Source of the DNA: Maribacter sedimenticola
GTDB lineage: Bacteria; Bacteroidota; Bacteroidia; Flavobacteriales; Flavobacteriaceae
NCBI RefSeq assembly: GCF_900188415.1
Contig: NZ_FZNV01000003.1
Coordinates: 186,001-250,000, forward strand
Direction of reading: 5' to 3'
Length of the DNA stretch: 64,000 bases
This document shows, piece after piece, positions 52,164 through 59,327 of this stretch. The notes under the pieces were generated by a model. That model had not been told where the DNA came from. It saw only the letters and a list, made by a program, of their open reading frames with translations, and made no database searches. The translations under genes were made by a program, and so were the position numbers. Each line of letters starts with the position of its first letter. Position 1 is the stretch's first letter.

Positions 52164-52208
52164 AAAGCACATCATATTTATATAAAATATGATGCGCTTT
52201 TATTTTAT
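52164..52208 (+). terminator. Intrinsic terminator of aqpZ
   Basis: Arms 52164-52179 and 52185-52200 are complementary at 15 of 16 positions around an ATATA loop and are followed by TATTTTAT. It begins 18 bp after the aqpZ stop and separates it from the GntP operon. Confidence 0.85.
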
Positions 52209-52247: not shown

Positions 52248-53564
52248 ATGCCATTATTCATTGTAATTTTAGGAATACTTCTACTCTTTGTACTTATTGC
52301 CCGTTTTAAATTAAATGCTTTTATCACCTTTATCATCGTATCCCTGTTCGTTGGTATCGCAGAAGGTATGGACCCCTTAAGTGTTGTGGACTCCATTCAG
52401 AAAGGTATAGGCAATATATTAGGTTTTCTCGTCATTATTTTAGGTTTGGGAGCCATGTTGGGCAAATTGGTGGCAGATAGTGGTGCCGCCCAACGTATAA
52501 CTACAAAACTGGTAGAAAAATTCGGTAAAAAGAATATTCAATGGGCCGTTGTCCTAACGGGTTTTATAGTAGGTATTCCCATGTTCTATTCCGTAGGGTT
52601 CGTGATTTTAGTGCCCTTGGTATTTACCATTGCCGCAGCTACCGGGCTACCCTTATTATATGTTGGACTTCCAATGTTGGCCTCCCTCTCGGTAACCCAT
52701 GGATATCTACCGCCACACCCAGCCCCTACTGCATTGGCATCTATGTTCAATGCCGATATTGGTAAGACATTATTATACGGTATTTTAGTGGCCATCCCAG
52801 CAATTATCGTGGCAGGCCCCTTATTTTCAAGAACTTTAAAGAATATAAATGCTACCCCTTTAAAGGAATTTATAAATCCTGTAATTTTAAAGGAAGATGA
52901 AATGCCCAGTATGGCCAATAGTATCATCAGTGCACTTTTACCCGTAATTCTTATAGCAATTGCCGCTCTTGCCCAGCTCTTTATGCCTACAGATTTCTTT
53001 CTAACAAAAATTTTAGTGTTTATGGGTAATCCTGCCATAGCCATGTTGATTTCGGTATTGGTGGCTATTTATACTTTGGGATTGGGCCGAGGCAAAAGTA
53101 TGGCGGAAGTTATGGGTTCGGTAAGCAGTGCCATTACAGGAATTACCATGGTACTTCTAATCATTGCGGGATCCGGAGCTTTAAAACAGGTATTGATCGA
53201 TAGTGGAGTTAGCGAATATATTGGTGGTATATTGGAACAATCTTCAATATCTCCTTTAATTTTAGCTTGGCTGATCGCTACGGTCATCCGTGTGTGCGTA
53301 GGTTCCGCAACCGTAGCCGGTTTAACGGCAGCAGGTATTGTACTGCCATTGGTGCAAGGCACCGGAGTTAGTCCAGAATTAATGGTGCTAGCCATTGGTT
53401 CCGGAAGTTTAATGTTATCCCACGTAAACGATAGCGGCTTTTGGCTCTTTAAAGAATACTTCAACTTGTCCGTAAACGATACCCTTAAAAGTTGGACCGT
53501 TATGGAAACAACAGTAGGGGTTATGGGGTTGATCGGTGTTCTGGTAATAAATATGTTCATTTAA
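52248..53564 (+). CDS. GntP-family transporter (gluconate or D-amino acid permease)
   Basis: A 438-residue polytopic membrane protein of the GntP family, with about 12 hydrophobic segments. Typical segments are LGLGAMLGKLVADSGAA, GIPMFYSVGFVILVPL, HGYLPPHPAPTALA and SHVNDSGFWLFKEYF. Family members carry gluconate, other sugar acids or, in DsdX, D-serine. The three following genes deal with amino acids and dipeptides, which favours a D-amino-acid substrate over gluconate; no gluconate kinase or dehydratase gene is nearby. It is the first gene of a four-gene operon. Confidence 0.88.
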   Translation: MPLFIVILGILLLFVLIARFKLNAFITFIIVSLFVGIAEGMDPLSVVDSIQKGIGNILGFLVIILGLGAMLGKLVADSGAAQRITTKLVEKFGKKNIQWAVVLTGFIVGIPMFYSVGFVILVPLVFTIAAATGLPLLYVGLPMLASLSVTHGYLPPHPAPTALASMFNADIGKTLLYGILVAIPAIIVAGPLFSRTLKNINATPLKEFINPVILKEDEMPSMANSIISALLPVILIAIAALAQLFMPTDFFLTKILVFMGNPAIAMLISVLVAIYTLGLGRGKSMAEVMGSVSSAITGITMVLLIIAGSGALKQVLIDSGVSEYIGGILEQSSISPLILAWLIATVIRVCVGSATVAGLTAAGIVLPLVQGTGVSPELMVLAIGSGSLMLSHVNDSGFWLFKEYFNLSVNDTLKSWTVMETTVGVMGLIGVLVINMFI

Positions 53565-53574
53565 AAAAATTAAT

Positions 53575-54042
53575 ATGCAAAAGAAACCTTCTGAAAGAAT
53601 TAAGGAATTAGGGTTGGTACTTCCACCCGCACCGCCACCTGCAGGATTGTACAAACCGGTTCTTGTCGTGGACCATTTTCTTTATATATCCGGACAAGGA
53701 CCCATGCAGAATGACGGTTCTTTGATTATTGGCAGAGCAGGCGATGATATGACCATGGAAGAGGCAAAATTAGCCGCAAGGCAAGTGGCCTTGACCATGC
53801 TATCTACTATACAGACCCATTTTGGCGATATCGATAAAATTAAACGTATTGTAAAGACCTTGGGAATGGTAAATTCCACTCCAGATTTTGGGCAGCAACC
53901 TTTGGTCATTAATGGTTTCAGCGAACTTATGGCAGCTATTTTTGGTCCCGATAACGGTGTTGGTGTTCGTAGTGCAGTTGGTATGATACTACCTGGCGGA
54001 ATACCTGTTGAAATTGAGGCTCATTTTGAATTACATCATTAA
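53575..54042 (+). CDS. RidA (YjgF/UK114) family protein
   Basis: A 155-residue RidA-family protein, about 25 residues longer than canonical RidA because of a proline-rich N-terminal extension (LPPAPPPAGLYKP). The GVRSAVG segment contains the Arg that contacts the carboxylate of imine substrates in RidA, followed by GGIPVEIEAHFEL. RidA proteins hydrolyse reactive 2-aminoacrylate and similar enamines made by PLP-dependent dehydratases. It sits 10 bp after the transporter and 5 bp before the PLP-enzyme gene, which strongly suggests it clears that enzyme's intermediate. Confidence 0.88.
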   Translation: MQKKPSERIKELGLVLPPAPPPAGLYKPVLVVDHFLYISGQGPMQNDGSLIIGRAGDDMTMEEAKLAARQVALTMLSTIQTHFGDIDKIKRIVKTLGMVNSTPDFGQQPLVINGFSELMAAIFGPDNGVGVRSAVGMILPGGIPVEIEAHFELHH

Positions 54043-54047
54043 ATCTC

Positions 54048-55160
54048 ATGAAAGACGACCACTGGTATTCCTTACACTATCCTGAGGAGGTTATTTCGCC
54101 CTCACTACTTGTCTATCCAGATAGAATACAGCAAAATATCAATACCATGATTTCTATGGTAGGTGATGTAAATAGATTAAGGCCCCATGTAAAAACCTAC
54201 AAAAATGCCAACATCATTGGTATGCAAATGTTATCTGGAATCCACAAATTTAAATGTGCCACGATTCCCGAAGCAGAATTGCTTGGAGATTGCAACGCCA
54301 AAGATGTCCTATTGGCCATGCAACCTATTGGCCCAAATACTAAACGCTTTGTTGAACTCATAAAAAAATATGGCACTACCAAATTCTCTACCCTCGTAGA
54401 CAACGCCAAAACTGTAAATCTGCTAGGTGATCTAGCTAAAGCGAATAATATTAAAATTTCGCTGTGGATAGATATCAATAACGGTATGAACCGAACAGGT
54501 ATAGCTCCTGACCAAAAAGCATTGGCCCTATATAGAGCATTAAATGAACATGAGCATTTAATTGCCGAAGGTTTACATGTGTACGATGGTCATTTACGAA
54601 ATACGAATCCCACTATACGCCAAGCAGATTGCAATACCGCTTTTGAACCAGTATTAAAATTAAAAGCCGCTATTGAGCAACTACGGATACCAAGTCCAAA
54701 AATAGTGGCTGGTGGTTCACCAACATTTCCATTTCACTGTAAACGGAAAGATGTGGAGGCCAGCCCAGGTACCACATTACTTTGGGATTCCGGCTATGGA
54801 ACTCTTTTTCCAGAGATGAATTTTTTACCTGCGGCAGTTTTAATAACACGAATACTCAGCAAACCCACTACTGGTATTCTTTGTTTTGATCTAGGTCATA
54901 AATCAATAGCACCAGAAATGCCTTTTCCCCGAATAGAATTTTTAGACCTTGAACACAGTAAGCAAATTAGTCAGTCAGAAGAGCATTTGGTAGTTGAATA
55001 TGACGACCTTACCATACCTGAGATAGGTGATGTGCACTACGCAGTTCCTAAACATATTTGTCCTACCGTAGCTAAATACGATACCCTTACCGTCGTTAAA
55101 GATAATGAGGTTATCGATCATTGGCCGGTAACTGCAAGAACCCAAAAATCTACTATTTAA
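54048..55160 (+). CDS. Fold-III PLP enzyme, D-serine dehydratase / D-threonine aldolase family
   Basis: A 370-residue alanine-racemase-fold PLP enzyme. RPHVKTYK near the N-terminus contains the PLP lysine (Lys49); WIDINNGMNRTG, VYDGHLR and GGSPTFPFH line the active site. Near the C-terminus the metal site reads PKHICPT, with His336 and Cys338. In chicken D-serine dehydratase the zinc ligands are His and Cys two residues apart, whereas D-threonine aldolase has His and Asp, so a dehydratase (D-serine, D-threonine or hydroxyaspartate) is favoured over the aldolase label usually given. RidA upstream and a dipeptidase downstream agree with this. Confidence 0.85.
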   Translation: MKDDHWYSLHYPEEVISPSLLVYPDRIQQNINTMISMVGDVNRLRPHVKTYKNANIIGMQMLSGIHKFKCATIPEAELLGDCNAKDVLLAMQPIGPNTKRFVELIKKYGTTKFSTLVDNAKTVNLLGDLAKANNIKISLWIDINNGMNRTGIAPDQKALALYRALNEHEHLIAEGLHVYDGHLRNTNPTIRQADCNTAFEPVLKLKAAIEQLRIPSPKIVAGGSPTFPFHCKRKDVEASPGTTLLWDSGYGTLFPEMNFLPAAVLITRILSKPTTGILCFDLGHKSIAPEMPFPRIEFLDLEHSKQISQSEEHLVVEYDDLTIPEIGDVHYAVPKHICPTVAKYDTLTVVKDNEVIDHWPVTARTQKSTI

Positions 55161-55162
55161 AC

Positions 55163-56227
55163 ATGTTTATATTCGATGCCCATTTAGACCTATCCATGAA
55201 TGCCATGGAGTGGAACCGCGACCTTACTTGGTCTGTTGAAGATATTAGAAATGGTGAGCAAGGTATGACCGACAAACCGGATAGAGGTAACAATACAGTA
55301 TCGTTAGATGCTATGCGAAAAGGTAATATAGGACTCTGTATGGCAACGCAAATTGCCCGTTATGTCCATAAGGACAATACACTACCGGGGTGGAAATCAC
55401 CCCAACAGGCCTGGGCACAGACACAAGGGCAACTGGCATGGTACAAAAGCATGGAAGATGCTAAAGAAATGGTTCAAATCACCAACAAAATTCAACTTGA
55501 TGCGCACCTGGAACTTTGGAAAACCGATAATGAAAAGAAACCTATTGGCTATATATTAAGTTTAGAAGGTGCAGATTCTATTATCGACATCTCATACTTA
55601 AAACGTTCATATGATCAAGGGTTACGCGCCATTGGCCCCGCACATTATGGCCCCGGCACATATGCCCATGGTACCAACTCATCTGGTGGTATCGGTACCA
55701 AAGGAAGAGCGCTATTAAAGGAAATTCAACGTTTAGGAATAATTTTAGACGTAACCCATCTATGCGATATCAGTTTTTGGGAAACTATGGTGAACTATGA
55801 GGGTCCTCTTTGGGCCAGCCACAATAATTGCAGGGCCTTGGTTAACCACCATAGGCAATTTACAGATGAACAGATTAAGGAAATTATATCACGTAAAGGT
55901 GTTATTGGTGTTGTACTTGATGCTTGGATGATGGCTCCAAATTGGGAAAGAGGGGTTTCTACACCGCAATCTGCAGGGGTAAGTCTACAGCAAATGCTCG
56001 ATAATATCGATCACATTTGTCAACTAGCCGGTAATGCCAATCATGTAGGCATTGGTTCTGACCTAGATGGCGGATTTGGAAAAGAACAAGGTCCTGCCGA
56101 TGTAGATACCATTGCAGATTTGCAAAAATGTGTTCATTTATTAGAAAACAGAGGGTATGCACCTCAAGACATTGAGAAAATAATGAGCGGAAATTTCATT
56201 TCATTCTTAAGGGAAAACTTAAAATAA
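55163..56227 (+). CDS. M19 membrane dipeptidase-family peptidase
   Basis: A 354-residue zinc-dependent dipeptidase of family M19 (renal dipeptidase type). Metal ligands are FDAHLDL (His, Asp), SLEGAD (bridging Glu), DVTHL and SHNNCRAL (His residues); GSDLDGG carries the catalytic-site Asp. Several bacterial M19 enzymes prefer dipeptides with a C-terminal D-amino acid. No signal peptide is seen, so it is cytoplasmic. The ATG at 55163, 2 bp after the previous stop, is chosen; earlier in-frame starts would overlap the upstream gene by 40 bp. It would release D-amino acids for the upstream enzyme. Confidence 0.9.
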   Translation: MFIFDAHLDLSMNAMEWNRDLTWSVEDIRNGEQGMTDKPDRGNNTVSLDAMRKGNIGLCMATQIARYVHKDNTLPGWKSPQQAWAQTQGQLAWYKSMEDAKEMVQITNKIQLDAHLELWKTDNEKKPIGYILSLEGADSIIDISYLKRSYDQGLRAIGPAHYGPGTYAHGTNSSGGIGTKGRALLKEIQRLGIILDVTHLCDISFWETMVNYEGPLWASHNNCRALVNHHRQFTDEQIKEIISRKGVIGVVLDAWMMAPNWERGVSTPQSAGVSLQQMLDNIDHICQLAGNANHVGIGSDLDGGFGKEQGPADVDTIADLQKCVHLLENRGYAPQDIEKIMSGNFISFLRENLK

Positions 56228-56430: not shown

Positions 56431-57084
56431 ATGAGAAATTCTTTTTTTCTTTTAATAATTATGGTTTGTTGTGCATTAACCAAGGTTTCCGCACAGTCCG
56501 AATTTCCTACTCCAAAACCCTTAAAAATTGAGGCGGCAAAACCTATTGAGCCGCAAGGCAAGACAAGTACGGGCAATGCTTTAAATATGCCTTCTCTGAT
56601 CAAGGAACAGCCCAATATTGATATGAAATCCAGAAATCCGGTAAAAATGTTGCCCGATGAAGAATTGGTACAGGCAGGCACGGGCATGAAGATTGATCCA
56701 AGGGTTGGTCCTGGAGAGCGCCTAAATGGATCTGGACAATTTTTTGCAGACCAGTATTTAGGAGATATTAAAAGTAACGGAAAATATATTGGCATTGTTT
56801 GTAGAGATCATGAATATGTAGACGGTGACCGTGTTAAGATTTATATGAACGATATGGTCATTGAGCAAAATCTATTACTGACCGGAGCTTTTAAAGGAAT
56901 TAATGTAGACCTACAAGATGGCTTTAACCGTTTGGACTTTGAAGCTTTGAACCACGGTTCCTCTGCACCTAACACCGCACAGGTAGATGTTTACAATGAT
57001 AAAGGAGAGCTGATCTACTCTAACAAATGGTTATTATCCGCAGGTTCCAAGGCTACTTTGATCGTTACCAAAGAATCAATGTAG
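56431..57084 (+). CDS. Secreted protein of unknown function
   Basis: A 217-residue protein with a clear signal peptide (RNSFFLLIIMVCCALTKVSAQ). The first half of the mature protein is proline- and lysine-rich and probably disordered (EFPTPKPLKIEAAKPIEPQ). The second half (about 110-215) is predicted beta-rich, with GDIKSNGKYIGIVCRDHEYVDGD and a strand pattern (VNVDLQDGFNRLDFEALNHG) reminiscent of a small beta-sandwich. I do not recognise a named family; similar proteins appear in flavobacterial genomes as conserved hypotheticals. It converges on the acylase gene with a 22-bp gap. Confidence 0.8.
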   Translation: MRNSFFLLIIMVCCALTKVSAQSEFPTPKPLKIEAAKPIEPQGKTSTGNALNMPSLIKEQPNIDMKSRNPVKMLPDEELVQAGTGMKIDPRVGPGERLNGSGQFFADQYLGDIKSNGKYIGIVCRDHEYVDGDRVKIYMNDMVIEQNLLLTGAFKGINVDLQDGFNRLDFEALNHGSSAPNTAQVDVYNDKGELIYSNKWLLSAGSKATLIVTKESM

Positions 57085-57106: not shown

Positions 57107-59281
57107 TTACTTACCAGGAACATACGTGCGTTTTGCATTTTTTAGAACATCATTACGATAATAAAGTACTTCTTTCCAATTTACATTCCTGTAACTATCA
57201 ATCTGATCGTTAAAATGTGGCGAACCGGGATTACCACTTTGTCCGCCTGCCAGAATACTTTTAGCCTTAACCGTATCCCCAAATTCAACAACTGCGGCAA
57301 AACTGTTGCCCCTTGTACCATATAATTTTTTAGCACCATCCGTTGTATACCGAGCGCCATAAGCGGCCAATGCCCCCCACCTACCGGATGCAAAGCCTAT
57401 AGGAATGCTTGGTTGTGCATCATCAAAATGTTGTACGATATCTCCTGTAGTTCGCTGATATCTATTTACCGCTCCCCACGGCATTTTCCACGTACCAAAA
57501 TCCGCCGTTAGTTCATCAATCACCTCTTCAAATATCTTTAATGCTTCTTCTGTATGTGTGCCAAAATAAATCATACGTTCCATGTCACTCAACCCTTCCG
57601 GATGCGCTGCCCTACTGCCCATTGCCGTTCCATAAAAGTGGGCCAAGGTAATAGCTACTTGATCTTCTCCAGTAGTGTAATCCCAATCTTCTAAAATTTT
57701 TATTGGTTCCCTTAATTTTGGGTTTTTATCGTCATGCGAATTATAAGCCTTTACCAATCCAGGAATGAGCGCCTTAAAGGCTGGTAAAAATGGATCATGT
57801 GCCAATTGAATTAAACTATCTATGGTATATCCTTTACGATCTTTCAATAAGTCAATAGCATGTACTCCCCTAAAATTCTCTTGATCCCTGGACATATAAT
57901 AGGGGTAATCTTCTTTGCTAGGACTAAATTCCAACGCTGCAGTATACGGAGTGGAATTACAATTCTGGATCCAACCATTTTCAGGATTTTTTATTAGAAT
58001 ATTTTCATCTACCGTATGCAATCCTTGCCAATCTGTCTTAGGGTCACTACCATCTACAGGTTGGGAATAGTTGAACTGAACGTCTCTTTTTGGAACAAAA
58101 TTTCCATGAAAATATGCAATGTTGCCTTCCGCATCTGCATAAACCGTATTGTTGCTTGAGTTGGTTCGGATATCCATCATGGTCCTAAAACCCTTGTATC
58201 CACTTTGTTTTGTACGGATAAACGATTGTTCCAAAGCTTTTACAGGTTCCCACATCATGGCAGATGCCGTCCATTGCCCATCGGCAACATGGGTTATGGG
58301 TCCGTGGTGCGTTCTGTATGCAGGAAATTTTTTCTCTTTCAATACTTCTCCATCCAAATACTTCAAAAGTATTTCAGACGATGCTACAGGACGTAATTCT
58401 TCTCCGTATTGATACATCAATTCGTCATCGTTTTTTATAATCGTTTCCTTGAATTCATCCATAACATCAGTATAGGTTGATGTATGCATCCATCCGGTTT
58501 TTTCGTTAAATCCTTGGTAAACGAAAAACTGGCCCCAAGTTACTGCACCATAGGCGTTTAATCCCTCTTCAGAAACTACATGAACTTCTCCCCTAAAATA
58601 AAACGAGGTATGCGGATTGATCAATAATAAAGGATTACCGGACCGTGTCAGCTTACCCGAAATTGCAATTCCGTTAGAACCTTGAGGCTCCTCCACTTCC
58701 TTCTCTTTATTTAATTGCAACATTTCCATCTTGGGCAGCTCCATATCACTCTCATAAAAAGCGGCGATCTTCCTAGTAGAAATGCGCTCAATATCCCCAC
58801 CAATAGAGCCTTCACTAAAATACATGGGCATCCATGGTTCAAAATGCGTCAGCAATTTCGGTTTTACTTCTGGGTGCGTATAGAGATAGTAATTTATTCC
58901 GTCTGCAAAAGCATCACATAATTCTTTTAACCAAGTAGGACTCTTTTCATAATTCGCTTTAGCTTCTTCTTCGGTCATAAAGAGTTTTGCGCGCAAATCG
59001 CTGTACAAGGCTTCTTCGCCATCTACTTCTGCCAATCTACCCGTTGCCCATATGTAGTTTTGCTCTACACGGTTAAAATCATCCTCGCACTGTGCATACA
59101 ACAATCCAAAAACGGCATCTGCATCTGTCTTACCATAAATATGTGGCACACCATAACCATCCCTTATAATCTCAACATTTGCCGCTTGTGCCTCCCACTT
59201 ATCCACTTTGGGGTTACCGGCTTTCTCCGTATTACAAGATAAAAATAGGATGAAGACCAACACATAAACTATTTTATTCAT
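57107..59281 (-). CDS. Penicillin-acylase-family (Ntn hydrolase) lipoprotein
   Basis: A 724-residue precursor of the penicillin G acylase / acylhomoserine lactone acylase family, with a lipobox (VFILFLSC). The alpha-chain region (GVPHIYGKTDADAVFGLLYAQCEDDF) is followed by the autoprocessing site PQGSNGIAISG, where Ser202 would become the N-terminal nucleophile of the beta chain. Later motifs such as YADAEGNIAYFHGNFVPKR and NNTVYAD fit the family. Substrates range from beta-lactams to N-acyl homoserine lactones and acyl-peptides; none can be chosen here. The ATG at 59279-59281 is preferred to the GTG two codons earlier. It lies 46 bp downstream of the TPM-domain gene. Confidence 0.9.
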   Translation of the reverse strand: MNKIVYVLVFILFLSCNTEKAGNPKVDKWEAQAANVEIIRDGYGVPHIYGKTDADAVFGLLYAQCEDDFNRVEQNYIWATGRLAEVDGEEALYSDLRAKLFMTEEEAKANYEKSPTWLKELCDAFADGINYYLYTHPEVKPKLLTHFEPWMPMYFSEGSIGGDIERISTRKIAAFYESDMELPKMEMLQLNKEKEVEEPQGSNGIAISGKLTRSGNPLLLINPHTSFYFRGEVHVVSEEGLNAYGAVTWGQFFVYQGFNEKTGWMHTSTYTDVMDEFKETIIKNDDELMYQYGEELRPVASSEILLKYLDGEVLKEKKFPAYRTHHGPITHVADGQWTASAMMWEPVKALEQSFIRTKQSGYKGFRTMMDIRTNSSNNTVYADAEGNIAYFHGNFVPKRDVQFNYSQPVDGSDPKTDWQGLHTVDENILIKNPENGWIQNCNSTPYTAALEFSPSKEDYPYYMSRDQENFRGVHAIDLLKDRKGYTIDSLIQLAHDPFLPAFKALIPGLVKAYNSHDDKNPKLREPIKILEDWDYTTGEDQVAITLAHFYGTAMGSRAAHPEGLSDMERMIYFGTHTEEALKIFEEVIDELTADFGTWKMPWGAVNRYQRTTGDIVQHFDDAQPSIPIGFASGRWGALAAYGARYTTDGAKKLYGTRGNSFAAVVEFGDTVKAKSILAGGQSGNPGSPHFNDQIDSYRNVNWKEVLYYRNDVLKNAKRTYVPGK

Positions 59282-59327
59282 AACCACTATACTTTTATAT
59301 CATTAAGGCTTATAAATGTACTTTATT

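Follow-up and report, generated by a model that had tools for sequence, protein, structure and literature searches.

The closest described system to the locus analysed here is the ong cluster of Pseudoalteromonas prydzensis ACAM 620, the published pathway for the N-acetyl-aldonate GlcNAc1A (PMC9537276). According to the available portions of the sources, the pathway starts with an AA10 lytic polysaccharide monooxygenase (LPMO) and has an RpiR-like regulator, OngR (PMC9537276); OngIT is a carrier of the SSS family, OngA is a GH20 enzyme, OngB deacetylates GlcNAc1A, and KdgK acts next (PMC9537276, PMC12017989). The conversion of D-glucosaminate (GlcN1A) to 2-keto-3-deoxygluconate (KDG) and NH3 is performed by OngC, a pyridoxal phosphate (PLP) enzyme of fold-type III which also deaminates D-Ser and D-Thr, while OngD, a RidA-family protein, is required in vivo for a role stated there as unknown (PMC9537276). 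The locus compared with it is a four-gene cassette in a stretch of 64,000 nucleotides from Maribacter sedimenticola (contig NZ_FZNV01000003.1, positions 186,001 to 250,000), which is called the window below. We propose, with a probability of roughly 0.6, that this cassette imports an N-acylated 2-amino-2-deoxy-aldonic acid and carries out the first steps of its degradation, with GlcNAc1A or GlcN1A as the most likely substrate. Its genes are as follows.

52248..53564, + strand: GntP-family permease, predicted amino-sugar-acid importer (PF02447, TIGR00791)
53575..54042, + strand: Rid protein, Rid1-like, with predicted catalytic Arg132 (PF14588, PF01042, conservation of the Arg)
54048..55160, + strand: fold-type III PLP enzyme, predicted to act as dehydratase/ammonia-lyase on D-glucosaminate (GlcN1A), with H336-x-C338 metal site and Asn185
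55163..56227, + strand: amidohydrolase of the Peptidase_M19 family, predicted to supply the PLP enzyme by N-deacylation (PF01244, conserved residues)

The four genes were separated by gaps of 10, 5 and 2 bp. Open reading frame (ORF) coordinates and Pfam families agreed on this packing, as the original prediction, made from the letters of the window, had described it. The start of the M19 gene was set to the ATG at 55163, replacing the TTG at 55121 given by the ORF caller.

In the proposed pathway, the sugar acid would be carried across the inner membrane by the GntP permease, and its N-acyl group would be removed by the M19 hydrolase. The PLP enzyme would dehydrate the resulting beta-hydroxy D-amino acid to an enamine; after tautomerisation to the imine, hydrolysis by the Rid protein would give KDG and ammonia. 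KDG would be phosphorylated by KdgK and the product split by Eda. Some relatives carry the genes for these two enzymes within the cassette, and the source genome has them at other sites. The substrate, the deacylation by M19, the hydrolysis by Rid and the sequence of the reactions are our inferences; the formation of KDG by the cassette is well supported by gene context. D-glucosaminate was chosen because it is a D-alpha-amino acid with a beta-hydroxyl group, would deliver KDG to KdgK and Eda, and suits the hexosaminide-cutting neighbours found in relatives. It has the 2R configuration and a threo C2-C3 arrangement like that of D-threonine.

Function for function, the window cassette taken together with the longer forms found in relatives appears to match the ong set, with GntP standing for OngIT and M19 for OngB. 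The fold-III PLP enzyme and a RidA-family protein occur together in the window cassette itself, and KdgK, a GH20 hexosaminidase and TonB-dependent uptake were found in relatives. There were also several differences. The carrier is of the GntP rather than the SSS family (an SSS symporter stands beside the PLP gene in only two of 158 related loci, L119 and L126), and M19 takes the place of the D-aminoacylase-type OngB. Eda is present in the cassettes of some relatives, and in one genus, labelled g127, the regulator belongs to the DeoR family instead of being RpiR-like. The source genome has no AA10 LPMO and the window cassette has no KdgK. A known deaminase of phosphorylated amino-sugar acids, so far as the available description goes, likewise forms a 2-keto-3-deoxy acid from an amino-sugar acid, but its substrate is phosphorylated. 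That route involves a different fold and uptake by the phosphotransferase system.

The PLP enzyme, the permease and the Rid protein

The PLP enzyme is composed of Ala_racemase_N (PF01168) and D-ser_dehydrat (PF14031) domains, as judged by Pfam. In the available text of PMC4401734, the D-threonine aldolase AxDTA has the metal ligands His347 and Asp349 and the potential base His193, whereas in chicken D-serine dehydratase the metal is bound by His and Cys and the aldolase base is missing. A His-x-Cys metal site is also reflected in the titles of structures 3wqg and 4pb3, which name C353A metal-free and H351A variants. In the window enzyme, the dehydratase-like His336-x-Cys338 site was found exactly where the original prediction had placed it, and it was invariant in all 158 clade loci. 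The column of the aldolase base His193 was occupied by Asn185; across the clade it was mostly Asp, Asn or Gly, with His in only 6 loci and absent from the other 152. Among the outgroup sequences, the six with HxD all carried His in this column, and eight D-serine dehydratase (DSD)-like ones had HxC. Because of the HxC metal site and the missing base His, dehydratase-type chemistry is likely for the PLP enzyme, within a clade of its own.

This separateness was seen in a quick tree, in which the 130 clade rows lay on one side of a branch with 100% SH-aLRT support, and the eight HxC DSD-like Bacteroidota rows and the six HxD rows fell outside. The clade did not group with DSD-like sequences in this tree, which excludes the solved enzymes 3anu and 3wqc. 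The window enzyme was 39–78% identical to 31 others in an alignment drawn partly from loci other than those of the M19 set described below. It shares the fold and the His-x-Cys site with the D-serine and D-threo-3-hydroxyaspartate dehydratases 3anu and 3wqc, and the chicken enzyme also lacks His193, but the identity in structural alignment was only 19–21%.

Ranking of solved proteins by sequence placed D-threonine aldolases and BhcC first, followed by D-serine and D-threo-3-hydroxyaspartate dehydratases, with 169 bits for 4v15 and 111 bits for 3anu. The AlphaFold2 model (mean pLDDT 93.7) gave the same ranking, with Z scores of 41.1 for 4v15, 38.7 for 3anv and 38.2 for 3anu. The closest solved sequence and fold would thus suit a genuine aldolase of D-threonine or beta-hydroxyaspartate whose metal ligand is unusual and which would yield glycine and an aldehyde. 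However, the aldolases 4v15, 7dib and 6qkb, with which the window enzyme shares the fold and the top overall score, have HxD and, by alignment, His193, in contrast to the HxC and substituted base column of the window clade. The equivalog cut-off of the 3-hydroxyaspartate aldolase BhcC was far from reached (99.8 vs 690 bits), and linkage to Rid and to kdgK/eda would be of no use in an aldolase route. The D-threonine aldolase reading was therefore rejected on the HxC ligand and the missing base, and we consider aldolase activity of either kind very improbable. NCBI annotates the homologs as 'D-TA family PLP-dependent enzyme', a label that would be misleading, as had been anticipated.

Two further groups of fold-III matches were discarded. 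A Vibrio campbellii match (H85) considered as OngC had flanking open frames unlike the ong cluster and an HxD site, and the haloarchaeal matches lay outside the PLP clade on the tree. Two haloarchaeal plasmid genes of this fold carried HxC; one was found beside genes for a D-aminoacylase and an SSS symporter (L134:7950-10739), and the other near a RidA protein gene (L251:7812-12118).

The permease matched PF02447 GntP_permease with 549 bits in Pfam and passed the subfamily model for gluconate:H+ symporters, TIGR00791 (571.8 bits, cut-off 292.75). It reached no gluconate equivalog model (for example NF011560, 579 vs 744 bits) and remained far under the DsdX equivalog cut-off of NCBIfam (293.4 vs 618 bits). 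The assignment to the GntP family made in the original prediction was thus retained, and a DsdX-like D-serine carrier was ruled out by the latter score, the matches being to gluconate models.

The Rid protein gave Pfam scores of 42 bits for PF14588 and 29 bits for PF01042. Its top solved match was the uncharacterised 3d01, followed by PA0814 and ACIAD3089, which belong to subfamily Rid1 (PMC5619798, available text). Among characterised solved relatives it was closer to these two than to archetypal RidA, the family member that had been suggested. According to the available text of PMC4433059 and PMC5619798, Arg105 of RidA is the mark of deaminase activity in Rid proteins. Its counterpart, identified by alignment with PA0814, is Arg132, which was retained in 22 of 22 orthologs listed and places the protein in the deaminase-competent RidA/Rid1-3 class. 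No mention of a dipeptidase, threonine aldolase, D-serine or GntP was found in the main text of PMC4433059.

Gene neighbourhoods and the choice of substrate

The mapping covered 181 loci. Of these, 8 had no PLP ORF that could be used, 5 were duplicates and 10 were weak (<200 bits); the other 158 were kept. Eighty of the loci are named and represent the best 80 of 585 confirmed candidates. In 135 of the 158 loci the flanking sequence reached 5 kb or more on each side, and neighbours were named by phmmer against one or two examples per family, with Pfam applied to chosen examples. The genus g127, probably Flavobacterium, was deliberately oversampled, and locus proportions do not equal population frequencies. 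At a distance of up to 7 genes from PLP, Rid was found in 118 loci, M19 in 114, GntP in 103 and all four families in 90; without g127 (n = 127), the counts were 87, 83, 72 and 59. The order GntP-Rid-PLP-M19 was directly consecutive in 58 of the 158 loci. Because of this co-occurrence, the grouping of the four genes is not attributable to chance.

KdgK and/or Eda were located inside the cassette in five separate arrangements. In genus g127, the order GntP-Rid-KdgK-Eda-PLP-M19 was observed in 22 of 31 loci, with SusC-SusD upstream in 21 of these 22, and KdgK-Eda was missing from the other 9; a DeoR-family regulator on the opposite strand and a GH20 hexosaminidase followed beyond M19 in all 31. 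Pfam examination of one such locus, L194, gave PfkB, KDPG/KHG aldolase, DeoRC, Glyco_hydro_20, SusD-like and TonB_dep_Rec. In L080 (Aquimarina megaterium), a PfkB kinase, a KDPG aldolase and a GH18 enzyme come after M19, and an SMP-30/gluconolactonase gene lies upstream. A PfkB kinase and Eda precede PLP-M19 in L107, where an IlvD/Edd-type dehydratase is found downstream; KdgK lies between PLP and M19 in L115, and Eda follows M19 in L070. Altogether KdgK was found in 25 of the 158 loci, after a weak kinase label in L168 (22 bits) had been discarded. The aldolases matched KDPG/KHG models, and against TIGR01182 (cut-off 156.05) those of L080 (180.2) and L107 (162.2) passed while that of L194 (150) just missed. 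Three kinases matched in NCBIfam first a KDPG-aldolase/sugar-kinase fusion model and then models of KDG/2-keto-3-deoxygalactonate (KDGal) kinases. On the PLP tree, the presence of KdgK or Eda no more than 3 genes away required a minimum of 7 changes, which indicated that the kinase and aldolase genes were repeatedly gained or lost. A NagB-type gene was found near the cassette in L084 and L159 (confirmed by Pfam in L084), and GH20 was found near it in the Chitinophaga loci L096 and L125.

An amino-sugar acid was favoured over a dipeptide as substrate because relatives' cassettes hold the KDG kinase, KDPG aldolase, GH20, GH18 and SusCD genes. The original prediction had proposed the dipeptide route, in which M19 would cleave L-X-D-Ser/D-Thr dipeptides, the PLP enzyme would dehydrate D-Ser or D-Thr, the Rid protein would release pyruvate or 2-oxobutyrate, and a DsdX-like GntP carrier would provide uptake. 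This chemistry is self-consistent, and it accords with the intact catalytic residues of M19, the dehydratase-type metal site and the action of OngC on D-Ser and D-Thr. Nevertheless, it leaves the additional genes of the sister cassettes unexplained, its products would need no KdgK or Eda, and the permease score speaks against it. We therefore regard it as unlikely: the dehydration to an enamine and the hydrolysis by Rid would be kept from it, and D-Ser/D-Thr dipeptides as main substrates would not. Since OngC deaminates D-Ser and D-Thr besides D-glucosaminate, activity on these amino acids could appear in the window enzyme without being its physiological role.

A different amino-sugar acid could also enter the same pathway, for example D-galactosaminate from GalNAc polymers, which would give 2-keto-3-deoxygalactonate, or a non-acetyl N-acyl derivative, including an aminoacyl one cut by M19 as a dipeptidase. 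Activity on terminal GlcNAc as well as terminal GalNAc is a general property of GH20 enzymes. The best models of the kinases after the fusion model were those of bifunctional KDG/KDGal kinases, and M19 is a dipeptidase family, both in keeping with such substrates. On the other hand, no galactosaminate-specific gene was seen in the neighbourhoods, and the only characterised parallel found is that of glucosaminate, so this alternative also appears improbable to us.

The distribution of Eda was examined across a family sample of 149 genomes, 30 of which carried a clade PLP gene (three weak matches were not counted). Eda was present in 28 of the 30 cassette genomes and in 55 of the 119 others (Fisher p ~1e-6, with genome size and kinship uncontrolled). 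In the source genome (4.27 Mb, 20 contigs), two kdgK-eda pairs were found, one of them beside a glucuronate isomerase gene; therefore KDG made by the cassette could be used there.

Some loci departed from these arrangements. In six (L098, L110, L117, L177, L181 and L182), Rid-PLP-M19 was followed by a protein of 865–867 aa resembling the MGH1-like/GH63 hydrolase of L182, after one extra gene in L177, which suggests a different glycan source; L098, L110 and L117 are from Mucilaginibacter. In L119 (6533-10359) and L126 (6533-10234), from metagenome-assembled genomes (MAGs) titled Verrucomicrobia, Rid-PLP was followed by a 92-aa protein and the SSS symporter, with no M19 within 7 genes.

The M19 protein as a candidate deacylase

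The M19 protein matched PF01244 Peptidase_M19 with 172 bits in Pfam, and its nearest solved proteins were of the M19/renal-dipeptidase type (3neh, 3lu2, 3ly0/3fdg and 3id7). Residues H7, D9, E135, H199, H220, R224 and D300 were invariant in 25 aligned M19 sequences, those from E135 onward being aligned to 3id7; we take these to be the usual metal and catalytic positions of dipeptidases. The window protein shares them with the M19 dipeptidases 3neh, 3fdg, 3id7 and 1itq, but it belongs to a distinct group tied to the cassette and its predicted substrate differs. The 24 orthologs were 53–86% identical to the window protein; as far as sequence conservation goes, this fits a specific shared role and is silent on the substrate. 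The structure model was of middling quality (pLDDT 80.2).

Deacetylases of the OngB type were sought with an Aquimarina relative of OngB as the query, not OngB itself; this protein gave 176 bits with the solved PpOngB and 172–220 bits with D-aminoacylases. None of the 29 Amidohydro_3 matches in five cassette genomes (9 in the source genome, G000, 3 in G348, 7 in G387, 4 in G427 and 6 in G317) exceeded 35 bits against it, and hence none of the nine in the source genome was OngB-like. M19 is therefore the candidate deacylase in these five genomes. A D-aminoacylase beside the M19-less cassettes was considered and rejected: no amidohydrolase was found there among 59 of the 73 neighbour proteins of 400–620 aa in 44 loci, with 25 of 64 Pfam families covered. 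In a tentative extension that we rate somewhat below an even chance, the M19 clade of Bacteroidota may be a carbohydrate de-N-acetylase that uses the dipeptidase fold, acts on the N-acetyl-aldonate GlcNAc1A and has taken the place of OngB; GntP/M19 catabolism would then be independent of the organisms' own AA10 LPMOs.

Contrary observations, flanking genes and significance

Several observations weigh against the amino-sugar acid pathway. The window cassette has no adjacent kdgK, eda, GH20 or SusCD genes, neither kdgK nor eda was convincingly near in 123 of the 127 loci outside g127, and the kinases scored under the NCBIfam equivalog cut-offs. The correspondence of the PLP enzyme to OngC is one of predicted function. 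M19 retains the usual dipeptidase residues, compatible with a peptide substrate; it was missing within 7 genes of the PLP gene in 44 of the 158 loci; and Aquimarina (G442) carries a D-aminoacylase/OngB-like enzyme elsewhere in addition to M19, which counters a simple replacement. AA10 LPMO was found in 3 of the 149 genomes and in none of the 30 cassette genomes, the source genome included, so any GlcNAc1A would come from elsewhere, such as other organisms' LPMOs or sugar oxidases. Finally, the neighbours of PLP and M19 in three loci are 3HCDH-type dehydrogenases and an aminotransferase of class III, which suggests another substrate there, and the PLP clade may therefore serve more than one substrate. 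These variant clusters, containing the PLP and M19 families, are located as follows.

L166:9006-13997
L178:3247-10232
L179:3300-10738

The best NCBIfam match of the L166 aminotransferase was a guanitoxin-type transaminase model, under its cut-off. A short RidA was found in L166 (by Pfam) and L179 (by eye), and a Ceramidase_alk-family protein in L178 and L179.

In the window, the gene directly upstream of the cassette encodes an aquaporin (PF00230), and a palindrome noticed by eye lies between the two.

52164..52200, + strand: terminator-like palindrome, 16-base arms with one mismatch, 5-base loop

The palindrome was absent from the sites listed by the scan, and the promoter scan was uninformative (16 sites vs 16.9 expected). 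Downstream, 56431-57084 (+) encodes a 217-aa protein without a Pfam match, whose cluster occurred in 19 of the 80 named loci, and 57107-59287 (-) encodes an amide hydrolase of the Penicillin-amidase family (405.7 bits), whose cluster occurred in 11 of them. The nearest named relatives at the cassette, within the best 80 of 585 candidates, were Maribacter spongiicola, M. arcticus and M. stanieri (78–79% identity).

No publication combining these gene families was found in a literature search that left most subscription journals outside, and a Bacteroidota version of the GlcNAc1A pathway was not seen among the titles retrieved. Ong-type GlcNAc1A catabolism is known; the GntP/M19 variant in Bacteroidota would be new, and the boldest claim about it is the deacetylase step assigned to M19. 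If the proposal is true, the proteins annotated in Bacteroidota as 'D-TA family PLP-dependent enzyme', 'membrane dipeptidase' and 'gluconate:H+ symporter' would form a route for oxidized amino sugars, which would extend to relatives in MAGs labelled Verrucomicrobia and others. Its function would be testable with one substrate series. It would also hint at the purpose of the dedicated Rid protein, whose counterpart OngD is described in PMC9537276 as being of unknown role. The M19 family would gain a carbohydrate-processing role, and the cassette would flag organisms with a possible capacity to use oxidized chitin-type sugars despite having no AA10 LPMO of their own.

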